Part shown: one piece after another, positions 4,717 to 34,982 of the stretch | Layout: every line of letters starts with the position of its first letter | Numbering within the stretch: position 1 is the stretch's first letter | Notes under the pieces: generated by a model | What the model was told of the DNA's origin: nothing | What the model saw: only the letters and a program-made list of their open reading frames with translations | Database searches by the model: none | DNA from: Pseudomonas paralcaligenes | Lineage (GTDB): Bacteria > Pseudomonadota > Gammaproteobacteria > Pseudomonadales > Pseudomonadaceae | NCBI RefSeq assembly: GCF_019655855.1 | Contig: NZ_BPFX01000003.1 | Span: 310,001 to 374,000, forward strand | DNA: 64,000 nucleotides | Reading direction: 5' to 3' | Translations under genes and position numbers: made by a program

Positions 4717-6567
<1,851 letters not shown>

Positions 6568-6621
6568 CGCGTCTTCCGAATCACCTCCGCCACCGGCGGA
6601 CCCGTCACGAGAGAGCCCCGT

Positions 6622-8391
<1,770 letters not shown>

Positions 8392-24497: not shown

Positions 24498-24893
24498 GCT
24501 GACTCCTTGAATTCGTACTTCGTCTGCGTGCTGATCTTCAGAGTCTAGAAACCCATCAACAGACTATTTCAGTCACCACGCCGAACGACATTCGCACCGG
24601 GCGGACATCCCTGGGTGGATTCGAGCGATAGCGGCATAACCCTAACTATGAAGGAAGCTTTAAGGTCAAGAGCATTTCTGGAATCGCCGTCAGCTGCTTA
24701 GGGTCGTGAAAGCCGGACCGGTATGTCTCGATGGGGCGATCGAGCCTCTGCCGCAGCGGACCAAATTGAGACCCATTCGTCGTTTACGGCAAGCCGAATT
24801 GTTGCGGCTGGTCCGTTCGGGTGAAATCCGCGCACTTGGATATGGCTCTAGCGGGATGCGACGGCCAGCTTTAGCTTGCAGGGAGGCGAGCGG
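24498..24893. other. Intergenic region between nmrA-like gene and vgrG
   Basis: This 396-bp gap marks the left border of the type VI effector island. It is less GC-rich than the flanks and has no convincing gene; a 63-codon open frame at 24706-24897 has no ribosome-binding site or coding character. The promoter for vgrG must lie here, but I see no clear -35/-10 pair. GGGAGG at about 24880 is the vgrG ribosome-binding site. Confidence 0.5.
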
Positions 24894-27218
24894 ATGAACA
24901 GAGTACTTAACGTCACTACGGTGTTCGGTGACGATGCGCTGCGCTTTTCGACCCTGAACGGCCACGAGGAAATCTCCCGGCTGTTCGACATGACGCTGGT
25001 CATGAAGAGCGAGCAGAAGGGCCTGGACCCTCAGGCCATCCTGGGCACCACGGTGACGGTGGCGATCGAGCTGGCCGGCGGTGCGCGGCGCCACATCAAC
25101 GGCCAGTGCGAGCAATTCGCCCTGGTCGGCAAGGAAGGCCGCCACTACCTCTACCAGGCCCGGCTCAAGCCCTGGTTGTGGTACGGCACACGCCGCAGCG
25201 ACTACCGCATCTTCCAGAACATGACCGCACCGGACATGGTCAAGCAGGTGCTGGGCAACTACCCGTTCCCGACCCGCTTCATGCTCACCCGCAGCTACCG
25301 CGTGTGGGAATACTGCGTGCAGTACCGCGAGAGCGACACCCAGTTCGTGATGCGCATGCTGGAGAACGAGGGCATCTGGTTCTGGTTCGAGCACAGCGCC
25401 GGCGAGCACGTGATGGTCATCACCGACGACATCGGGCTGTGCAACCCCTATCCCGGCTACGCCAGCATTCCCTACTTCGACCCGGACGTGACCTACCCGG
25501 ACGAGGACCACATCGACACCTGGTCCTCCGGTGGCTCGGTCAAGCCGGGGCAGTACATGTCCCACGACTACAACTTCACCATGCCGCGCTCGGACCTGGC
25601 GGTGCGCCGCGACCAGTCGCCCGGGCATGCCCACGGCAGCTACGAGATCTTCGACTACCCGGGTGGCTACACCAACCTGGGCGAGGGCGAGGCCTACGCC
25701 CGGGTGCGGGTCGAGGAACTGCAGAGCGCGCACCTGCGCGGTCAGGCGACGGGGCGGGCGCGGGGACTGGCGCCGGGCTACCTGTTCACCCTGGAACGCC
25801 ACCCCAGCGCGAGCCAGAACCGGGAATACCTGGTGGTGGCGGCGCACTACCAGTTCAGCGACAACGACTACGAGGCGGCCAGCGGCTCGAGCAGCCACGT
25901 GCTGCGCATCCGGGTCGAGACGCACCCGTCGGACCAGCCGTTCCGCGCCCAGCGGCTGACGCCCCGGCCGCAGACCATGGGCCCGGACACGGCGACGGTG
26001 ACAGGGCCGAAGGGCCAGGAGATCTACACGGACGAATACGGCCGGGTGAAAGTGTCGTTCCCGTGGAACCGCTACTGCAGCAAGGACGAGAACAGCTCCT
26101 GCTGGATACGCGTGTCGCACCCGTGGGCGGGCTCGAGCTTCGGTGGCATCCACCTGCCGCGGATCGGCCAGGAAGTGCTGGTCGACTACCTGAACGGCGA
26201 CCCGGACCGTCCGGTGATCACCAGCCGGCTGTACAACGCCTTCCAGATGCCGCCGTGGCAGCTGCCGGCCAACGCCACCCAGTCGGGCATCCTGACCCGT
26301 TCGAGCCTGGGTGGCGGCTACGAGAACGCCAACGCGCTGCGCTTCGAGGACCGCAAGGGCGAGGAACAGCTGTGGATTCACGCCGAGAAGAACCAGGACA
26401 TCGAAGTCGAGAACGACGAGACGCACTGGGTAGGCAACGACCGCAGCAAGACCATCGACCGCGACGAGACCAGCCACATCAAGCGCGACCGTACGGAGAC
26501 GGTGGACCGTGACGAGACGATCACGGTGCACGGCAACCGCAAGGAAGAAGTGGACGGCAACGAGACCATCGACATCCACCAGAACCGTACGGAGACGGTG
26601 GATGGCAACGAGAAGGTGACGATCCACAAGAACCGCACGAAGAGGGTGGACAAGAACGAGACGGACCGTATCGGCAAGAACTGGTCGACGAGAATCGGCA
26701 AGAACAAGACCGAGACCATCGGCATGGCCTACCTGCAGAACGTCGGGCTGGGGCGGATGGAGAATGTCGGGCTGGGGTACAGCCTGAACGTGGGCATGAT
26801 GATGAACACCCTGGTCGGGATGAGCGAGAGCAGCCGGATCGGCAAGGACAAGAGCACCAGCGTCGGCAAGCAGTACAGCGTGAAAGTGGGGGGCGGCTCG
26901 TCCGGCATTGCCGGCATGGCGGCAATGCCCATGAACATCGTCGCCCCCTCATCGCCGGCAGCCGCTCAGGGCGGTTCCAGCCTCACCATGAATGGCGACA
27001 GCATCACCTTGCAGGTGGGGCCTTCCAAGGTGGTGATCACCGCCAAGGGCATCTTCGTCGATGGCCCGGAGCTTCACTTCAAGGCGGCCAAGACCTTCAA
27101 TGCCGATGCGCCGGACGACATCCACCTCAACAGCGGAACGGCCAGCAGTGCGCCGGACATGGTCGAGGCGGAGAGCAGCCCGCTCGACAGCATCATGAAG
27201 CCCGGGAGCTGCTTCTGA
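24894..27218 (+). CDS. vgrG: Type VI secretion spike protein VgrG
   Basis: A 774-residue VgrG. Residues about 1-370 form the gp27/gp44-like part, about 375-450 the gp5 OB-fold (YTDEYGRVKVSFPWNR ... GQEVLVDYLNGDPDRPV), and about 500-665 a gp5C-like beta-helix of degenerate heptads (TETVDGNEK, TKRVDKNETD, then shorter Gly-rich repeats). A C-terminal part (about 690-774) has PSKVVITAKGIFVDGPE. It trimerises as the T6SS tip. The stop overlaps the DUF2169 start (TGATG), so spike, adaptor and effector are translated as a unit. No sheath, tube or baseplate genes are nearby, so it depends on a T6SS elsewhere. Confidence 0.95.
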   Translation: MNRVLNVTTVFGDDALRFSTLNGHEEISRLFDMTLVMKSEQKGLDPQAILGTTVTVAIELAGGARRHINGQCEQFALVGKEGRHYLYQARLKPWLWYGTRRSDYRIFQNMTAPDMVKQVLGNYPFPTRFMLTRSYRVWEYCVQYRESDTQFVMRMLENEGIWFWFEHSAGEHVMVITDDIGLCNPYPGYASIPYFDPDVTYPDEDHIDTWSSGGSVKPGQYMSHDYNFTMPRSDLAVRRDQSPGHAHGSYEIFDYPGGYTNLGEGEAYARVRVEELQSAHLRGQATGRARGLAPGYLFTLERHPSASQNREYLVVAAHYQFSDNDYEAASGSSSHVLRIRVETHPSDQPFRAQRLTPRPQTMGPDTATVTGPKGQEIYTDEYGRVKVSFPWNRYCSKDENSSCWIRVSHPWAGSSFGGIHLPRIGQEVLVDYLNGDPDRPVITSRLYNAFQMPPWQLPANATQSGILTRSSLGGGYENANALRFEDRKGEEQLWIHAEKNQDIEVENDETHWVGNDRSKTIDRDETSHIKRDRTETVDRDETITVHGNRKEEVDGNETIDIHQNRTETVDGNEKVTIHKNRTKRVDKNETDRIGKNWSTRIGKNKTETIGMAYLQNVGLGRMENVGLGYSLNVGMMMNTLVGMSESSRIGKDKSTSVGKQYSVKVGGGSSGIAGMAAMPMNIVAPSSPAAAQGGSSLTMNGDSITLQVGPSKVVITAKGIFVDGPELHFKAAKTFNADAPDDIHLNSGTASSAPDMVEAESSPLDSIMKPGSCF

Positions 27219-28336
27219 TGGTCGACAACCAGAGCGGCTTTCCGCACTTGTTGTTCGAGAAGAGAGGTTACCGCGGCAAGCCATTCGATGTGCTGGTGAT
27301 CCGTGGCACCTTCGATTTCTCCAGCAACGGCAATCCCATGCCCAGGGCGGCCAGGCAGGAGCCGATCCAGTACGGCGACAGCTTGATCGGCCCGGCTGCG
27401 CACGACCCCATCCGGGCCTTGCTCAAGACCGACGGCGACCTGCTGCTAGGCAAACCGGCAACCGACATCCACATGACCGGCCAGGCCTGTTGCGAGGAGG
27501 GGAAGACCCTGCGGGACTGGGTCATGGGCTTGCGGATCGGGCGGACCGAGAAATTCCTGCACCTGCTCGGGCCCCGGCGCTTCGAAAAAACACCGCTTGG
27601 CTGGCGGTCGAGCACCTCCGAACGCACCGACCGTGTTGCCCTCGACTACCGCCAGGCTTTCGGCGGCGTCTTCTCGGTCAAGGATACGAATGACCGCTGG
27701 CAGCATCTCTACAAGCCGGACAATCCGGTCGGCTGTGGCTGGCTGCCCGATGATACGGACCTGGAACGCTTGGAAAAGACCGAGCGCCGAGCGATGGAGA
27801 AGCAGATCGGCCACATACGGTCCCTGCCCGCGCCTCAGATCGGGGATGCTCAGAAACCCATTGCCAGCCCGTACAGCCGCCATCCGGTAGAGGGCACCGG
27901 CCCTATCGCACGCTGGTGGGAGCCCCGCCTGGCCTTGGCGGGCACCCTCGACGCCGACTGGCGGGCGCAGCAGCATCCCGCGATACCCGACGACTTCGAC
28001 ATGCGCTTCTACCAGAGCGCCCATCCCGACCTGATCTATCCCGGCTACCTCGAAGGCGACGAAGAACTCGCGCTTCTGGGCTGCCTGGCCGAAGGACGGA
28101 CCCACATGCGCCTGCCGGCGCTTGGCATCCTGCTGGCCGTGGCCAAGCGCGATGGCCCCACCACGCTGACCTGGCCGAGACTGGACACCCTGGCGCTCGA
28201 CCTCGATAAGCGCCGGGCCAGCCTGACCTGGCGCTTGCCATTCGGGCGGGACAACCCGGTCCGGCGCATCGGTATCGCGGCCATCGGCATGGATGCCTGG
28301 CGGTGCACGGTAGGGCAGGAGGCCCCACATGTCTGA
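27218..28336 (+). CDS. DUF2169 adaptor for PAAR-like effector
   Basis: A 372-residue protein with the DUF2169 pattern (VLVIRGTFDFS early, then paired-strand segments with VALDYRQAFGG at about 140 and DPVE/HPVEGTGP elements at about 220). DUF2169 proteins are encoded between vgrG and DUF4150-type PAAR-like effectors and serve as chaperones or adaptors that load them, as shown for Agrobacterium Tde2. The gene overlaps vgrG by one base and the rhs gene by 8 bp, exactly the position expected for a dedicated loader. It is probably cytoplasmic. Confidence 0.88.
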   Translation: MVDNQSGFPHLLFEKRGYRGKPFDVLVIRGTFDFSSNGNPMPRAARQEPIQYGDSLIGPAAHDPIRALLKTDGDLLLGKPATDIHMTGQACCEEGKTLRDWVMGLRIGRTEKFLHLLGPRRFEKTPLGWRSSTSERTDRVALDYRQAFGGVFSVKDTNDRWQHLYKPDNPVGCGWLPDDTDLERLEKTERRAMEKQIGHIRSLPAPQIGDAQKPIASPYSRHPVEGTGPIARWWEPRLALAGTLDADWRAQQHPAIPDDFDMRFYQSAHPDLIYPGYLEGDEELALLGCLAEGRTHMRLPALGILLAVAKRDGPTTLTWPRLDTLALDLDKRRASLTWRLPFGRDNPVRRIGIAAIGMDAWRCTVGQEAPHV

Positions 28337-31300: not shown

Positions 31301-33485
31301 GGAAAGTGTTGATGGCGTGCCGGCGGGCAGTGCTCATCTCGGTAGCGGCACAGGGGCGCTGCTACGCACCCGCTACCAGCGGGACGCCATGGGCCGCCTG
31401 CTGGACAAGTTCAGCTACAAGCCGGGGACGGACGGCAAACCCCAGTTGGCCCACAGCCGCTACCACTACGATGCAGCCGGGCAACTGCTCTGTGCCCGCA
31501 ACCGCCAGGCCCGGGTAGAGCTGTTCTACAACCAGGCCGGCCAACTGGCCCGCGAAGTGCTCTACAGCCGGGGCGGGCAACGCAGCGAGCTGAGCCATGC
31601 CTACGACCTGCTCGGTAACCGTGAAACCACCACACTGCCCGATGGTCGCCAACTCAACACCCTGACCTACGGCAGCGGTCACGTACACCAGATCAACCTC
31701 GACTTCGAGGTGATCTGCGACTTCGAGCGCGACGCGCTGCACCGCGAAACGGGTCGTACCCAGGGCGCCTTGTATACGCACTTCGAACTCGACCCGTTGG
31801 GCCGCCTGCTGCGCAGCCAGGTCAGCCTGCAGAGGCAGGCCGCCAATCCACAGGTTGGCCCAGGGCTCGATACATGCGAGCGGAGCCAGGGTCAGCGCAT
31901 CGCCCGTCGCTACCAGTACGACCTGGCCGGGCAACTGCTGGGCATCGACGATCGCCGCAACGGCTCGACCCGCTACGGCTACGACGCACTGGGACGACTA
32001 CTCAGCGCCCAGGCACCCCAGGCCAGCGAAGTGTTTGCCTTCGACCCGGCCCACAACCTGATGCAGCCCGAGGAGGCCCAGCGGCAAGAGACACGACTCA
32101 AGCAGACCACCTGGAGCGAGGAGGAGTGGTCGGCCTATGTACAGGCCAACTTGGACAGTCCCGACTTCAACCCGCTACTCACACCGGCAGAGGCCCAGGC
32201 TGACCCCAGCACCTGGGGCGATAACAAACCCAACCGTTTGCGGGTATGGGAAGAACACCGCTATGCCTACGACGCCTGGGGTAACTGCATCGAGAAGAAG
32301 TCCGGTCCGCATACCGAGCGACAGTTCCAGTGGGATGCCGAGCATCAACTGAGTCGCGTCACTGTTACCCGCCGACAAGGACGCTTCACCCTTACCGAGC
32401 ACTGGGGCTACGACTACGATCCGTTCGGACGACGCATCGCCAAGTATCGGCTCGATCCGCACAACGAAAAGCGCAGCCGTCCCTGGTTGGACGAGGAAAC
32501 CACCCACTATGGCTGGGACGGCAACCGCCTGCTGCTGGAGCGACAGGGCGACAGGCAGCAACTCTACATCTATGAGCCGCGCAGCTTTTCTCCACTGGCG
32601 ACGGTGCGCACCGCCGGCCCGGTGGATGAATCACAACGCCTGCTGCCGGAATACCGGGCACTCAAGGAGCAACATCCGGAAGAATGGCAAGCGGCCATGG
32701 CGAGGTTGCCACGTAGGGTTGCCGCAACGATCCGGCAGTTGGAACAGCCGAAAAGCCCCAACAAGAATTCGGTAGAAATCCTCTACTACCACACTGACCA
32801 TCTAGGTACGCCGAGGGAGCTGACGGATGCCTCGGGACATATTGTCTGGTCAGCAACCTACAGGGCTTGGGGCAATACGGCGAAGATTGAGCGGCCTGGA
32901 CGGTTGATCACGGATATCCGGAGTAATGTCCAGATTCAGCGGTGGGAACAGCAGGCCGAACCCGTTGAGCAGAACCTGAGGTTCCAAGGGCAGTATTGCG
33001 ATCAGGAAACAGGTCTGCACTACAACCGGTTTAGGTACTACGATCCGGATTGTGGGCGGTTTTTGAGCCAAGACCCGATAGGGCTGCTGGGAGGTAACAA
33101 TAGCTATCAGTATGCCCCTAACCCGATGATATGGGTTGACCCTCTAGGGTTATGCAAGTGCCTTGGAGGGCTTGAGGGGGTCGATGACTTTTTAGCCTCT
33201 CAAAATAAAAATATAAATCAGAAGCTTGGCGAAAAGATAGGGCAAGGCCGGCTCCCTTTTGAGAGAAGTAAAGCTGGCGTTGAACAAGCCAAGTTAACAG
33301 TAAAAGAAACGCTTGAGAATGTTACAGAGGTTAGTGATGTAATACCAAGCTCCTCAGTGCGAGGGAGTTATGATCTTGTTCATGTGTATAGTTCTAAGAC
33401 GGGTAGTACCGTGAGTTTGCGCGTAATGCCAGATGGAAGTTATGAGTTTGATACATTGATTCCTGAAAAATCCTCTAAGTTTTAG
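28329..33485 (+). CDS. PAAR-like/RHS polymorphic toxin, T6SS effector
   Basis: A 1718-residue effector. Residues about 60-160 form a PAAR-like (DUF4150-type) tip domain, and about 160-330 contain hydrophobic helical stretches. A Pro-rich linker (about 340-375) leads to the RHS N-terminal module at about 400 (HPVNVIYGCKLLEG). YD repeats run over about 615-1250. The RHS core ends with YYHTDHLGTPRELTD (about 1486) and DPIGLLGGNNSYQY, then DPLGL at 1604-1608, the usual self-cleavage boundary. The last 110 residues (1609-1718) form the toxin, whose DNA is much more AT-rich than the core, as in tip exchange. The core presumably encapsulates the tip and delivers it on VgrG. The tip family is not recognised; a small nuclease-like domain is possible. 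Confidence 0.93.
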   Translation: MSDSSSTGGSGVVELGPLYITDYELPEGEPTPLAPVGPEKHVAEETTEWLAVCSYPDSCMVGDKVVPFDSCALLDQQVLASPDVKARGNCVYRQGDMFKGVLGDAGAHVVSETSLGDGHVLILEGHNKVKVNNIPVACHDGPCMINTNAMGMGGTPGRLLTEISIPGTSSVPTGPSSSARLEQLKGLQEKLGRGQFDLDKLDEYVQFGELNDIIDGIQGTEGTWTDYLAQGTRGVLKFGTGIGEGAYELVKLGGKLIQRSPLQNFVDGAVLAENMRLGNVTAGSVGSQALEVGKAIIVPPEAQEAWQKGATTEAAVHTVLNVGTLVGGLAKSAGGLFRRTPKVEPIPPKVPEPPPPAAMPEPTPPPRVPEQPSSSQGVKVKQEAPANKANGESDIDCLSCVTKAHPVNVIYGCKLLEGPSDLDFILDAPLPLAWHRTYVSSNAHIGWLGQGWSLPIEFRLELQEGYIDFIDMQGRRTQFPLLAIGESFFSRYEHTTLQRNQRNQYEVVEPDGLRLIFGLGSLDRARHEVEDDVHGNLPPQAQTLYLLGMIDPNHNHLRLHYGNDGLPRHLDTSSGRRVGFIFDRTRAEPRLTHVVELLGEPDGRGHYSREQQQWLVEYRYSAEGDLIEVRDGDGQLGRTFAWRNHMMVEHTEPGGLVATYQWDQFDPKGRVLRSSTAQGQSWTFDYDEVAGCTRVTDASGREERFLYDKDKKLIGLVDAAGGKTHYERDAYGNLIALIDPAGRVTRRQYDDRGNLLGITQPDGARYQLRWHERWRKPVAVSDPLGRTTHYRYDERGNLIAVTEPNGAVTEYQLDGRGLPTTILDARGGRKHLEHDAQGRLLAYTDCSGNRTQYSYDAQGRLASVTDALGHNTQYGYARINRRDRLNSIRHADGAIERFAYDPLGRLIAHHDPLGRVTRYQLDTEGRPLQRIDALGHSLRYEYDVHGRLVRLHNENNAIYRFAWDALDRLVAEQGFDGRRIDYRYDATGQLLESVDGVPAGSAHLGSGTGALLRTRYQRDAMGRLLDKFSYKPGTDGKPQLAHSRYHYDAAGQLLCARNRQARVELFYNQAGQLAREVLYSRGGQRSELSHAYDLLGNRETTTLPDGRQLNTLTYGSGHVHQINLDFEVICDFERDALHRETGRTQGALYTHFELDPLGRLLRSQVSLQRQAANPQVGPGLDTCERSQGQRIARRYQYDLAGQLLGIDDRRNGSTRYGYDALGRLLSAQAPQASEVFAFDPAHNLMQPEEAQRQETRLKQTTWSEEEWSAYVQANLDSPDFNPLLTPAEAQADPSTWGDNKPNRLRVWEEHRYAYDAWGNCIEKKSGPHTERQFQWDAEHQLSRVTVTRRQGRFTLTEHWGYDYDPFGRRIAKYRLDPHNEKRSRPWLDEETTHYGWDGNRLLLERQGDRQQLYIYEPRSFSPLATVRTAGPVDESQRLLPEYRALKEQHPEEWQAAMARLPRRVAATIRQLEQPKSPNKNSVEILYYHTDHLGTPRELTDASGHIVWSATYRAWGNTAKIERPGRLITDIRSNVQIQRWEQQAEPVEQNLRFQGQYCDQETGLHYNRFRYYDPDCGRFLSQDPIGLLGGNNSYQYAPNPMIWVDPLGLCKCLGGLEGVDDFLASQNKNINQKLGEKIGQGRLPFERSKAGVEQAKLTVKETLENVTEVSDVIPSSSVRGSYDLVHVYSSKTGSTVSLRVMPDGSYEFDTLIPEKSSKF

Positions 33486-33495
33486 GTATGTGGCG

Positions 33496-33924
33496 ATGAA
33501 GGTTGCTGGAGATACTTTTTGTGAGTTCAGGGGGCGATCTTTCTATATCAATGGACAGGTTGTGTGTTCCTGCTTGGTTCTGTTCATTAGGCTCCTAAGG
33601 TGTGGCTGGATATCTCTAACTATTGGTGAGGGGGTCATTGAGTGGTCTTCTCTAGAGGAAGACCCAGATTTGCTGGGGTTGGAGGATGTCGATGATGAGT
33701 TTGCATATCCAGTTGTTAGCCTTTACCAATTGAGATCTTATTTGGGGAGAGAAGTATTAGGGGTCTTTGAGTATAGGCTTGAGAAGGCCAATAATATTTG
33801 CGTTGGAGTATATTTCAAGTGCAAAGGAGGCGGCTTCAGTGTTGTGGAGGAGGACGGTTGTTTATGCTTTTTTGATGGGGTGGTTGCTAAGGGCTTTGAG
33901 GGCTTGGTTTTAGTGGATTCCTAA
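33496..33924 (+). CDS. Candidate immunity protein for the RHS toxin
   Basis: A 142-residue protein beginning 10 bp after the toxin stop, at ATG 33496 with AGGT about 9 bp upstream; GTG at 33490 is in frame but sits too close to the AGGT. It is acidic and lacks a signal peptide, as expected for a cytoplasmic immunity protein (segment EWSSLEEDPDLLGLEDVDDE). The DNA is as AT-rich as the toxin tip, so the two probably moved together. I recognise no family; the assignment rests on position, composition and charge. Confidence 0.75.
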   Translation: MKVAGDTFCEFRGRSFYINGQVVCSCLVLFIRLLRCGWISLTIGEGVIEWSSLEEDPDLLGLEDVDDEFAYPVVSLYQLRSYLGREVLGVFEYRLEKANNICVGVYFKCKGGGFSVVEEDGCLCFFDGVVAKGFEGLVLVDS

Positions 33925-33976
33925 CTCTAAGGGAATTTTGTGAGATACCTAGGAGGAGCCAAAAATAATTTCTGGT

Positions 33977-34366
33977 TTGGAGAAGGCAGGGCTCTTGTTT
34001 AGGAAATTGAAGTGGGTAGTTCAGGCTTTGGCTAGTGCAGCGCCTGATCAGGTAAAGCTATTTCCTGGCTTCGTCAATGTTGCAGATGAGTTGGCGTTGA
34101 TTTGGGAGGATGTTTTAAATGATCTGGATAATCTGGCGAGAGAACTTCCAAAAAGCGTAATTTTATCAGTTAATAAGTTGGATGATAAAATACTATCAAT
34201 TAGCGGAAGTGGTAATGCTCAGCTATGGACCGAAGCGGCGTTGTACGAATCCTCCCACTGGGAGGATATAAGGGCATTGGCAAAAGCTGTGGCTGAGGAG
34301 ATGAATTGGAGTATCAGCTCTCCAAGTACTGCTGATGGGGTATATGTTGGACCGCCTGAATGCTAG
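33977..34366 (+). CDS. Small AT-rich ORF, second candidate immunity or orphan protein
   Basis: A protein of about 129 residues (LLFRKLKWVVQALASAAPDQ..., then ISISSPST near the end); it is acidic overall and not recognised. TTG at 33977 is the first standard start. The strong AGGAGG at 33951-33956 is 20 bp upstream of it but has ideal spacing to an in-frame ATA at 33965, with ATT at 33968 next, so the true start may be a mutated ATG or a rare codon. Position behind a toxin/immunity pair fits an accumulated immunity gene. Confidence 0.6.
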   Translation: MEKAGLLFRKLKWVVQALASAAPDQVKLFPGFVNVADELALIWEDVLNDLDNLARELPKSVILSVNKLDDKILSISGSGNAQLWTEAALYESSHWEDIRALAKAVAEEMNWSISSPSTADGVYVGPPEC

Positions 34367-34398
34367 CTGCCACAAAGTGTAGAAAAGGAAGTGTCAAT

Positions 34399-34982
34399 AT
34401 GGCCGATAGCGGCAAGTGGCGGCACCTCTGTACTACTCTTTGCCCAGAGAGTGGAAGCCTGGGAGATGCTGTCGTCCTTTGTTTGGAGGCGCCAGATATC
34501 TATTTTGAGCGTTTGAGGATGATCTGGCACAGCGAATGATCGAGTCTTCAGACGAGGTGACACCGTGGCTGGCCTTAGTCGACGGGCTGGCTAGCCGTAA
34601 CTTGCTTTGGGAGTGCGACTGGAAAGTGGTTGCGCCAGAGCTGTCTGGATGTATTGAATCTTTACGCCCCTACAAAGAGCTAGAGTTGGACTTTGAGGTG
34701 TTCAACCAAAGCGATGCCAGTGGTGATGCTCTTATGCGGCAGGCAGCGGTGCTGTTGGCGCATGCAGGGCTTGCACTGGTGCAATTCGATATCCAAAGCG
34801 ACAGCTATCCGCTGATGGCCGTGCGACTTAGCGAGTTGCCGGCCGCTCAGGCAGCCTGTATCGCCGTAGGGCATGGAGAAGATTTGATCGTCTTCTTACC
34901 CGACGCCGGGCCTCTGGCAACTTCTACCGTGGAGACAAGCTGGCGGCGCCGGACACTTGGTCTATTGGGCTTTTCTCGTTGA
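34399..34982 (+). pseudogene. Frameshifted acidic protein (DUF6630-like), possible orphan immunity gene
   Basis: Two overlapping frames look like one gene. The first (34399-34537, MADSGKWRHLC...) gives 46 residues ending in YFERLRMIWHSE. The second (from 34536) gives 148 residues starting MIESSDEVTPWLALVDGL. Upstream of that ATG the second frame already reads EDDLAQR, so one lost base near 34505-34515 would rejoin them as YFER-F-EDDLAQRMIESSDEV. The second part has the order seen, from memory, in DUF6630 proteins (WLALVDGLASRNLLWECDWK ... LALVQFDIQSDSYPL). If the overlap ATGA is genuine, two coupled small proteins are the alternative. Confidence 0.55.

Follow-up and report, generated by a model that had tools for sequence, protein, structure and literature searches.

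The window examined here is a 64,000-nucleotide stretch of the Pseudomonas paralcaligenes genome (contig NZ_BPFX01000003.1, positions 310,001 to 374,000). It contains a cassette encoding an RHS protein that ends in a small C-terminal domain, the toxin tip, predicted to be a ribonuclease (RNase) of the BECR fold (Table 1). The RHS protein is ordered as: a weak PAAR-like N-terminus, where the Tox-PAAR-like match lies below its cut-off; DUF6531; RHS repeats; the RHS core; and the tip. DUF2169 genes are common neighbours of Rhs effectors, and vgrG plus DUF2169 upstream of an RHS gene is the usual neighbourhood of an Rhs effector of the type VI secretion system (T6SS). The gene order here, with vgrG, DUF2169, the RHS gene with its DPLGL boundary, the tip and an immunity gene, is that of T6SS Rhs effector cassettes with swapped tips. 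Compared with those cassettes the architecture looks ordinary, apart from a tip family and an immunity family that the libraries searched do not contain. DPLGL ends at residue 1608 (nucleotide 33152); a sequence-only reading of this DNA, which placed the tip after DPLGL at residues 1609-1718, from nucleotide 33153 on, was exact.

Table 1. Features of the RHS cassette and its surroundings (window coordinates).
Feature	Coordinates	Strand	Remarks
vgrG-like T6SS spike gene	24876..27218	+	780-aa open reading frame (ORF) from first possible start; Pfam Phage_GPD E 1.6e-99, Gp5_trimer_C, Phage_base_V
DUF2169 gene	27218..28336	+	PF09937 E 9.3e-68
RHS protein, 1718 aa	28329..33485	+	PF05593 E 6.4e-81, PF20148, PF03527, TIGR03696
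Core/tip boundary YAPNPMIWVDPLGL, residues 1595-1608	33111..33152	+	Similar boundary in other Pseudomonas RHS loci, with other tips after it
Toxin tip, residues 1609-1718, predicted BECR-fold RNase	33153..33482	+	Homologues, AlphaFold2 model, fold matches
Predicted helix 2, residues 1626-1638, with Lys1632 and Lys1636	33204..33242	+	Holds first part of motif KLGxKIGxGRLP
Ser1688, Thr1691, Thr1694, Arg1698	33390..33422	+	Conserved polar residues that run from the tail of a predicted strand into the following strand
Predicted last strand, residues 1705-1711, with FDTLI	33441..33461	+	Thr1709 at the likely position of colicin D Ser677
Putative cognate immunity gene, 144 aa from GTG 33490	33490..33924	+	Relatives directly downstream of the tip at 10/12 loci; pI 4.4; model pLDDT 89.2
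129-aa ORF in the same AT-rich island as the tip	33977..34366	+	Relatives in 2/198 other genomes of the genus, one internal stop in each

The tip is a mobile, exchangeable toxin domain. As in polymorphic toxins, it is a variable C-terminal domain behind a conserved carrier and occurs on different carriers (RHS and CdiA/filamentous haemagglutinin, FHA). With residues 1605-1718 as query, 12 proteins were found. Nine are of the FHA/CdiA type by their domains (65-79% identity), five of them from Pseudomonas and one named filamentous haemagglutinin; the other three are distant RHS-type proteins (44-51% identity), including those of a Pseudomonadales metagenome-assembled genome (MAG) and of Anthocerotibacter, a cyanobacterium. 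Two proteins with tip relatives, P0007 and P0070, bear a HINT domain. A second search, with P0012 as query, added P0015, a haemagglutinin-type protein of Yersinia, and a profile search of short proteins yielded 56 more orphan tips or fragments, many of which sit on short contigs and are possibly pieces of longer proteins. A pattern scan of a one-genome-per-species collection recovered eight tip loci: four in Pseudomonadales (three Pseudomonas and one MAG), and one each in Franconibacter, Mixta, Proteus and a Bacteroidia MAG. In the last of these (locus L008, 4753-6348), the tip forms the end of an open frame of 532 codons, in which Pfam identifies no domain at E up to 0.01.

The tip is rare, being present in 4/293 relatives and 2/390 genomes of the order (both counts include the own genome), in 2 of 72,556 plasmids and in none of 50,697 records of a phage collection. 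The plasmids found with the immunity protein are the same two as with the tip, and the Anthocerotibacter tip finds one of them; Franconibacter tip-plus-immunity DNA had no match in the E. coli genomes searched. In 41/59 Pseudomonas genomes (own included) the final part of the RHS core is conserved, and 25 of these loci were fetched, the window's own being L022. Most pieces of the other 24 loci end in a recognisable NP..W.DPxG boundary, with the qualification that the pattern misplaced some pieces (L025, L027, L033, L040 and the first piece of L024) and that L027 and L038 end early. The tip and immunity profiles match L022 alone among the 25, which indicates that the same RHS core bears other tips elsewhere.

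The sequence-only reading could name no family for the tip, and the searches bear this out: Pfam, NCBIfam, PADLOC, PHROGs and the sequences of the PDB all fail to return a significant match. The lowest E-values of the tip, 0.2 in PHROGs and 1.2 in PDB sequences (single sequence), are chance-like. The same holds for the best row of the tip alignment A1 as a profile against PDB sequences (E 0.011, a designed protein) and for that of 10 members of A1 against NCBIfam (E 0.0079, a sugar isomerase model, in 2/10 members); against Pfam, these members gave weak scattered rows only (best E 0.13). The Colicin_D family (PF11429) returned no row for the tip at E up to 1, nor for any of the 10 members at E up to 10. 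PF18664 (CdiA_C_tRNase) had no match in the tip, and its profile had none in 229 genomes of the class or in 14 control genomes, so that this last comparison failed. The viral structure library provided no useful match, and the motif strings of the tip family retrieved a single, unrelated paper among open-licence PubMed Central papers.

Conservation was counted over 75 unique rows, each count being out of the rows with a residue at that position; many rows are fragments and many are near-identical, so the counts are not independent. Two stretches stand out. In the first, Lys1632 (58/59), Gly1634 (60/61) and Lys1636 (61/61) are followed by Arg1641 (53/61, with Asp, Glu or Lys in the other rows). 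In the second, Ser1688 (69/72), Thr1691 (66/72), Thr1694 (66/71) and Arg1698 (67/71) precede the last-strand residues Phe1707 (70/70), Asp1708 (68/70), Thr1709 (70/70) and Leu1710 (70/70). No histidine column is conserved family-wide, and no cysteine column is conserved. The seven residues singled out by the sequence-only reading all lie at the positions it gave, and part of its choice stands: Arg1698 and Asp1708 are strongly conserved and Arg1678 mostly so (66/73). The other four fare less well: Asp1682 (52/72), His1685 (50/72, with Asp in 19) and Asp1702 (30/71) are not conserved, and Glu1706 (45/52) is absent from the distant branch described below. The list also left unnamed the most conserved polar residues, Lys1632, Lys1636, Ser1688 and Thr1709. 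Because no histidine is conserved, His1685 is unlikely to be catalytic.

The AlphaFold2 model of the tip is confident (predicted local distance difference test, pLDDT, 89.8) and places helices before a beta-meander. In the BECR fold, N-terminal helices precede a meander of four strands. The helices of the model span residues 10-16, 18-30 and 40-55, and the strands 74-80, 85-91 and 97-103; the would-be first strand of the meander is assigned by DSSP in this predicted model at residues 59-60 and 64 only. Among solved structures, colicin D and CdiA-CT Kp342 match the model best, with modest scores; both are tRNA-cleaving RNases (tRNases) of the BECR fold, and the leading rows of both fold searches belong to one functional class. 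A conserved Ser or Thr in strand 4 is given as a feature common to the BECR fold (PMC3482391). In the tip, the invariant Thr1709 lies in the last predicted strand, and the tip is predicted to have the BECR fold. It neither matches a non-enzymatic RHS tail nor is predicted to be disordered. The earlier suggestion of a small RNase gains support from this confident model with BECR tRNases as its best solved matches, and from the near-invariant Lys/Lys/Thr set.

For comparison at the residue level, seven Pseudomonas colicin D domains were set against the tip family. Residue numbers are those of E. coli colicin D (PMC3482391). They are placed on the KKYKH and FLSGW motifs. When 5700 ungapped diagonals of 22 residues were ranked, the top six all followed the meander and paired NPTTNLVVIVAANGKFLSGW with SEQTGSTVRLRTDGTFDTLI, which places the Ser of colicin D FLSGW on Thr1709; the diagonals ranked next lie in helix 3 at nearly the same offset. 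In the alignment, Lys1632 fits colicin D K608, Thr1709 fits S677, and Lys1636 falls one residue past the H611 position. The distant branch of the family (15 rows without the loop insertions of the Pseudomonas tips) gives a colinear profile alignment with the colicin D domains over 73 columns, with a score of 18.05 that 1/300 column shuffles reached. This branch was tried after a first non-significant result, so the figure follows a post hoc choice; shuffling columns also destroys the local order found in real proteins, which makes this figure and the corresponding whole-family figure below rough.

CdiA-CT Kp342 (PDB 6cp9), a tRNA-Ile-specific and EF-Tu-dependent toxin with 15% identity to the tip, is described as using K157, Y160, H170, R252 and T255 (PMC9086364). 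The structural alignment pairs tip model residue 105 with Kp342 chain residue 259, and T255 would fall on Thr1709 if the alignment is ungapped there. The tip would work like a colicin-D-type BECR RNase, and it stands outside Pfam Colicin_D, the family of colicin D (PDB 1v74, 1tfo, 5znm). The carriers also differ: those of the tip are RHS and CdiA proteins, whereas colicin D itself is a bacteriocin.

Several results weigh against this assignment. The residues essential in colicin D are K607, K608, H611, D614 and S677 (PMC3482391), and the tip family does not have the complete set, with no conserved His for H611. Likewise, His170 of Kp342 has no conserved equivalent, nor does Tyr160; of the Lys-Tyr-Thr triad with an added His and Arg described for it (PMC9086364), Lys and Thr are available, and the N-terminal half holds no conserved Tyr or His. 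Plain hhalign alignments of the two tip alignments with the colicin D domains were not significant (probability 1.8% and 0.2%). The raw scores were 17.0 for tip alignment A1, 11.8 for A3 and 14.1 for the immunity alignment used as a control; as the control lies between the two tip scores, raw scores alone do not discriminate. For the whole tip family, the profile score against colicin D (16.39 over 17 columns) was reached by 15/300 shuffles. In addition, the Foldseek E-values of the tip model are weak, and the tip of the window is near neutral (pI 5.85).

The weak E-values, and the lack of a significant sequence match to any RNase, would also suit a tip that is no nuclease at all, its fold match reflecting a common alpha+beta arrangement and its target being, for example, a nucleotide, a protein or a membrane. 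We regard this as unlikely: one functional class leads both fold searches; the invariant last-strand Thr aligns with the active-site Ser of colicin D; and inspection by eye gives no hint of a transmembrane toxin in the sequence. The sequence-only reading had offered a deaminase as its second option. Size alone fits, and this option has next to no probability. Nucleic-acid deaminases carry a zinc motif of the HxE/CxxC type, for which the tip family has neither the conserved His nor the conserved Cys, and no deaminase appears among the best 50 rows of each PDB fold list. A PD-(D/E)XK reading was dropped as well, since no acidic set is conserved beyond Asp1708 and no Cys or His is conserved.

Two further possibilities accept the predicted fold. 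The tip could act on another RNA, for example rRNA, as does the BECR toxin CdiA-CT ECL, or mRNA on the ribosome in a RelE-like manner. This is unlikely, given that the best structural matches are tRNases and that all characterised BECR CdiA-CTs except CdiA-CT ECL are stated to be tRNases (PMC9086364); for the same two reasons tRNA is the most likely target. The tip could also belong to Ntox36, the one described clade that is a candidate for this, in which case the family would already have a name. Among the open-licence PubMed Central papers searched, Ntox36 is named in PMC3482391 alone. It is a BECR clade predicted in 2012 (Zhang et al.) by comparative genomics, with Gloeobacter gll0213 as its type; it has no conserved His, occurs with RHS, FilH and HINT, and is found in gamma-proteobacteria and cyanobacteria among others (PMC3482391). 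The tip family likewise has no conserved His, RHS and FilH carriers, HINT in P0007 and P0070, and a distribution over proteobacteria and, through Anthocerotibacter, cyanobacteria. The conserved residues listed there for Ntox36 are N, [RY] and [DE] (PMC3482391), without the Lys, Lys, Ser and Thr that dominate in the tip family, and membership is rather unlikely.

We therefore consider it probable that the tip is a metal-independent BECR RNase, presumably a tRNase, delivered by the T6SS here and by contact-dependent growth inhibition (CDI) elsewhere. The gene, its boundary, the mobility of the tip, its linkage to the downstream gene and the conservation are direct results; the fold is modelled, and we infer the catalysis, the tRNA target and the way in which immunity works. 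The proposed mechanism involves: carriage by an RHS protein of the T6SS type here, while most named relatives have carriers of the CdiA type; delivery with the T6SS spike, followed by cleavage behind DPLGL and release into the cytoplasm of a rival; and cutting of RNA, most likely tRNA, through a metal-independent 2'-OH attack. The active site would be formed by two lysines of helix 2, Lys1632 and Lys1636, and by the last-strand Thr1709, together with Ser1688 and Arg1698, with no conserved histidine. The acidic, mostly beta immunity protein would block this site, as other BECR immunity proteins do.

The gene at 33490-33924 is very probably the immunity gene, its neutralising role being putative, because 10 of 12 distinct loci have a relative of it immediately behind the tip. 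Its more likely start is the ATG at 33496, 10 nt past the toxin stop. The immunity profile A2 was searched against the open frames of the window, L001-L008, L010, L013 and L014; L009, L011 and L012 are duplicates (L012 of L006) and were left out. An immunity relative stands directly behind the tip in the window, L001, L002, L003, L004, L005, L008, L010, L013 and L014, among them a plasmid of Ochrobactrum and a MAG of Bacteroidia. A2 was built from seven of the ten pairs, which therefore match by construction; L010, L013 and L014 stand outside it. The exceptions are L007, a tip fragment without an immunity relative, and L006, a Pseudomonadales MAG locus with another ORF behind the tip. That 185-aa ORF (6310-6867) has no Pfam match at E up to 0.01 and is perhaps a second immunity family for the tip toxin.

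The six other A2 members are 24-43% identical to the immunity protein of the window, and all seven are acidic (pI 4.1-4.5). The profile matches 4/243 relatives: the own genome; G051 and G138, both with the tip; and G111, for which no tip match was reported and which was likely among the 293 genomes of the tip search. In L005 (5857-6756), L013 (2281-3740) and L014 (1935-2531), the tip frame is broken or truncated and the adjacent immunity frame is open, as expected of an antidote. At L050 (1492-1929, minus strand), a copy of the immunity gene occurs without a tip in the fetched stretch and adjoins another small ORF; this locus also holds, judged by eye, the apparent end of a different polymorphic toxin.

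The base composition sets the tip apart from its carrier. Its G+C content (GC) is 42.4%, and that of third codon positions (GC3) 36.4%, as against 62.5% and 75.4% in the remainder of the RHS gene, where no 330-nt window upstream of the tip falls below 53.3% (1498 sliding windows). Over the 64 kb, 330-nt windows with GC as low as the tip number 7/2123 (0.33%), tip-overlapping ones included, and only the stretch 33031-34470 is made up of windows with 47% GC or less. The AT-rich shift noted in the sequence-only reading is thus real, but its placement as abrupt at DPLGL is approximate, as GC declines from further upstream (59.2% at 32500-32999, 51.8% at 32750-33249). The 129-aa ORF in this island has no family in Pfam, NCBIfam, PADLOC or PHROGs, with a weak and non-significant DncV_C match (E 0.037), and is perhaps a decayed orphan immunity gene. 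Directly after the island, the gene at 34536-34982 encodes a DUF6630 protein (E 4.5e-22) and is possibly another immunity-type gene.

A more specific proposal, which we hold as doubtful, is that the tips are uncatalogued, histidine-free colicin-D-like tRNases in which Lys1636, the second lysine of helix 2, replaces the catalytic His of colicin D, and that their immunity protein, which would have an NFACT-N-like fold, may block the toxin, a tRNA-handling fold thus serving as antidote. The NFACT-N fold is that of Rqc2/RqcH, tRNA-binding factors of ribosome quality control. More generally, the analysis proposes a testable role for an RHS/CdiA tip named by none of the libraries searched, and supplies the family of its immunity protein. 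The tip family spans Pseudomonas, Enterobacterales, a cyanobacterium and a Bacteroidia MAG. If its members do cut RNA without a histidine, they would be another example of the BECR fold building an active site from different residues, and would offer a compact case for learning which active-site residues are truly needed.

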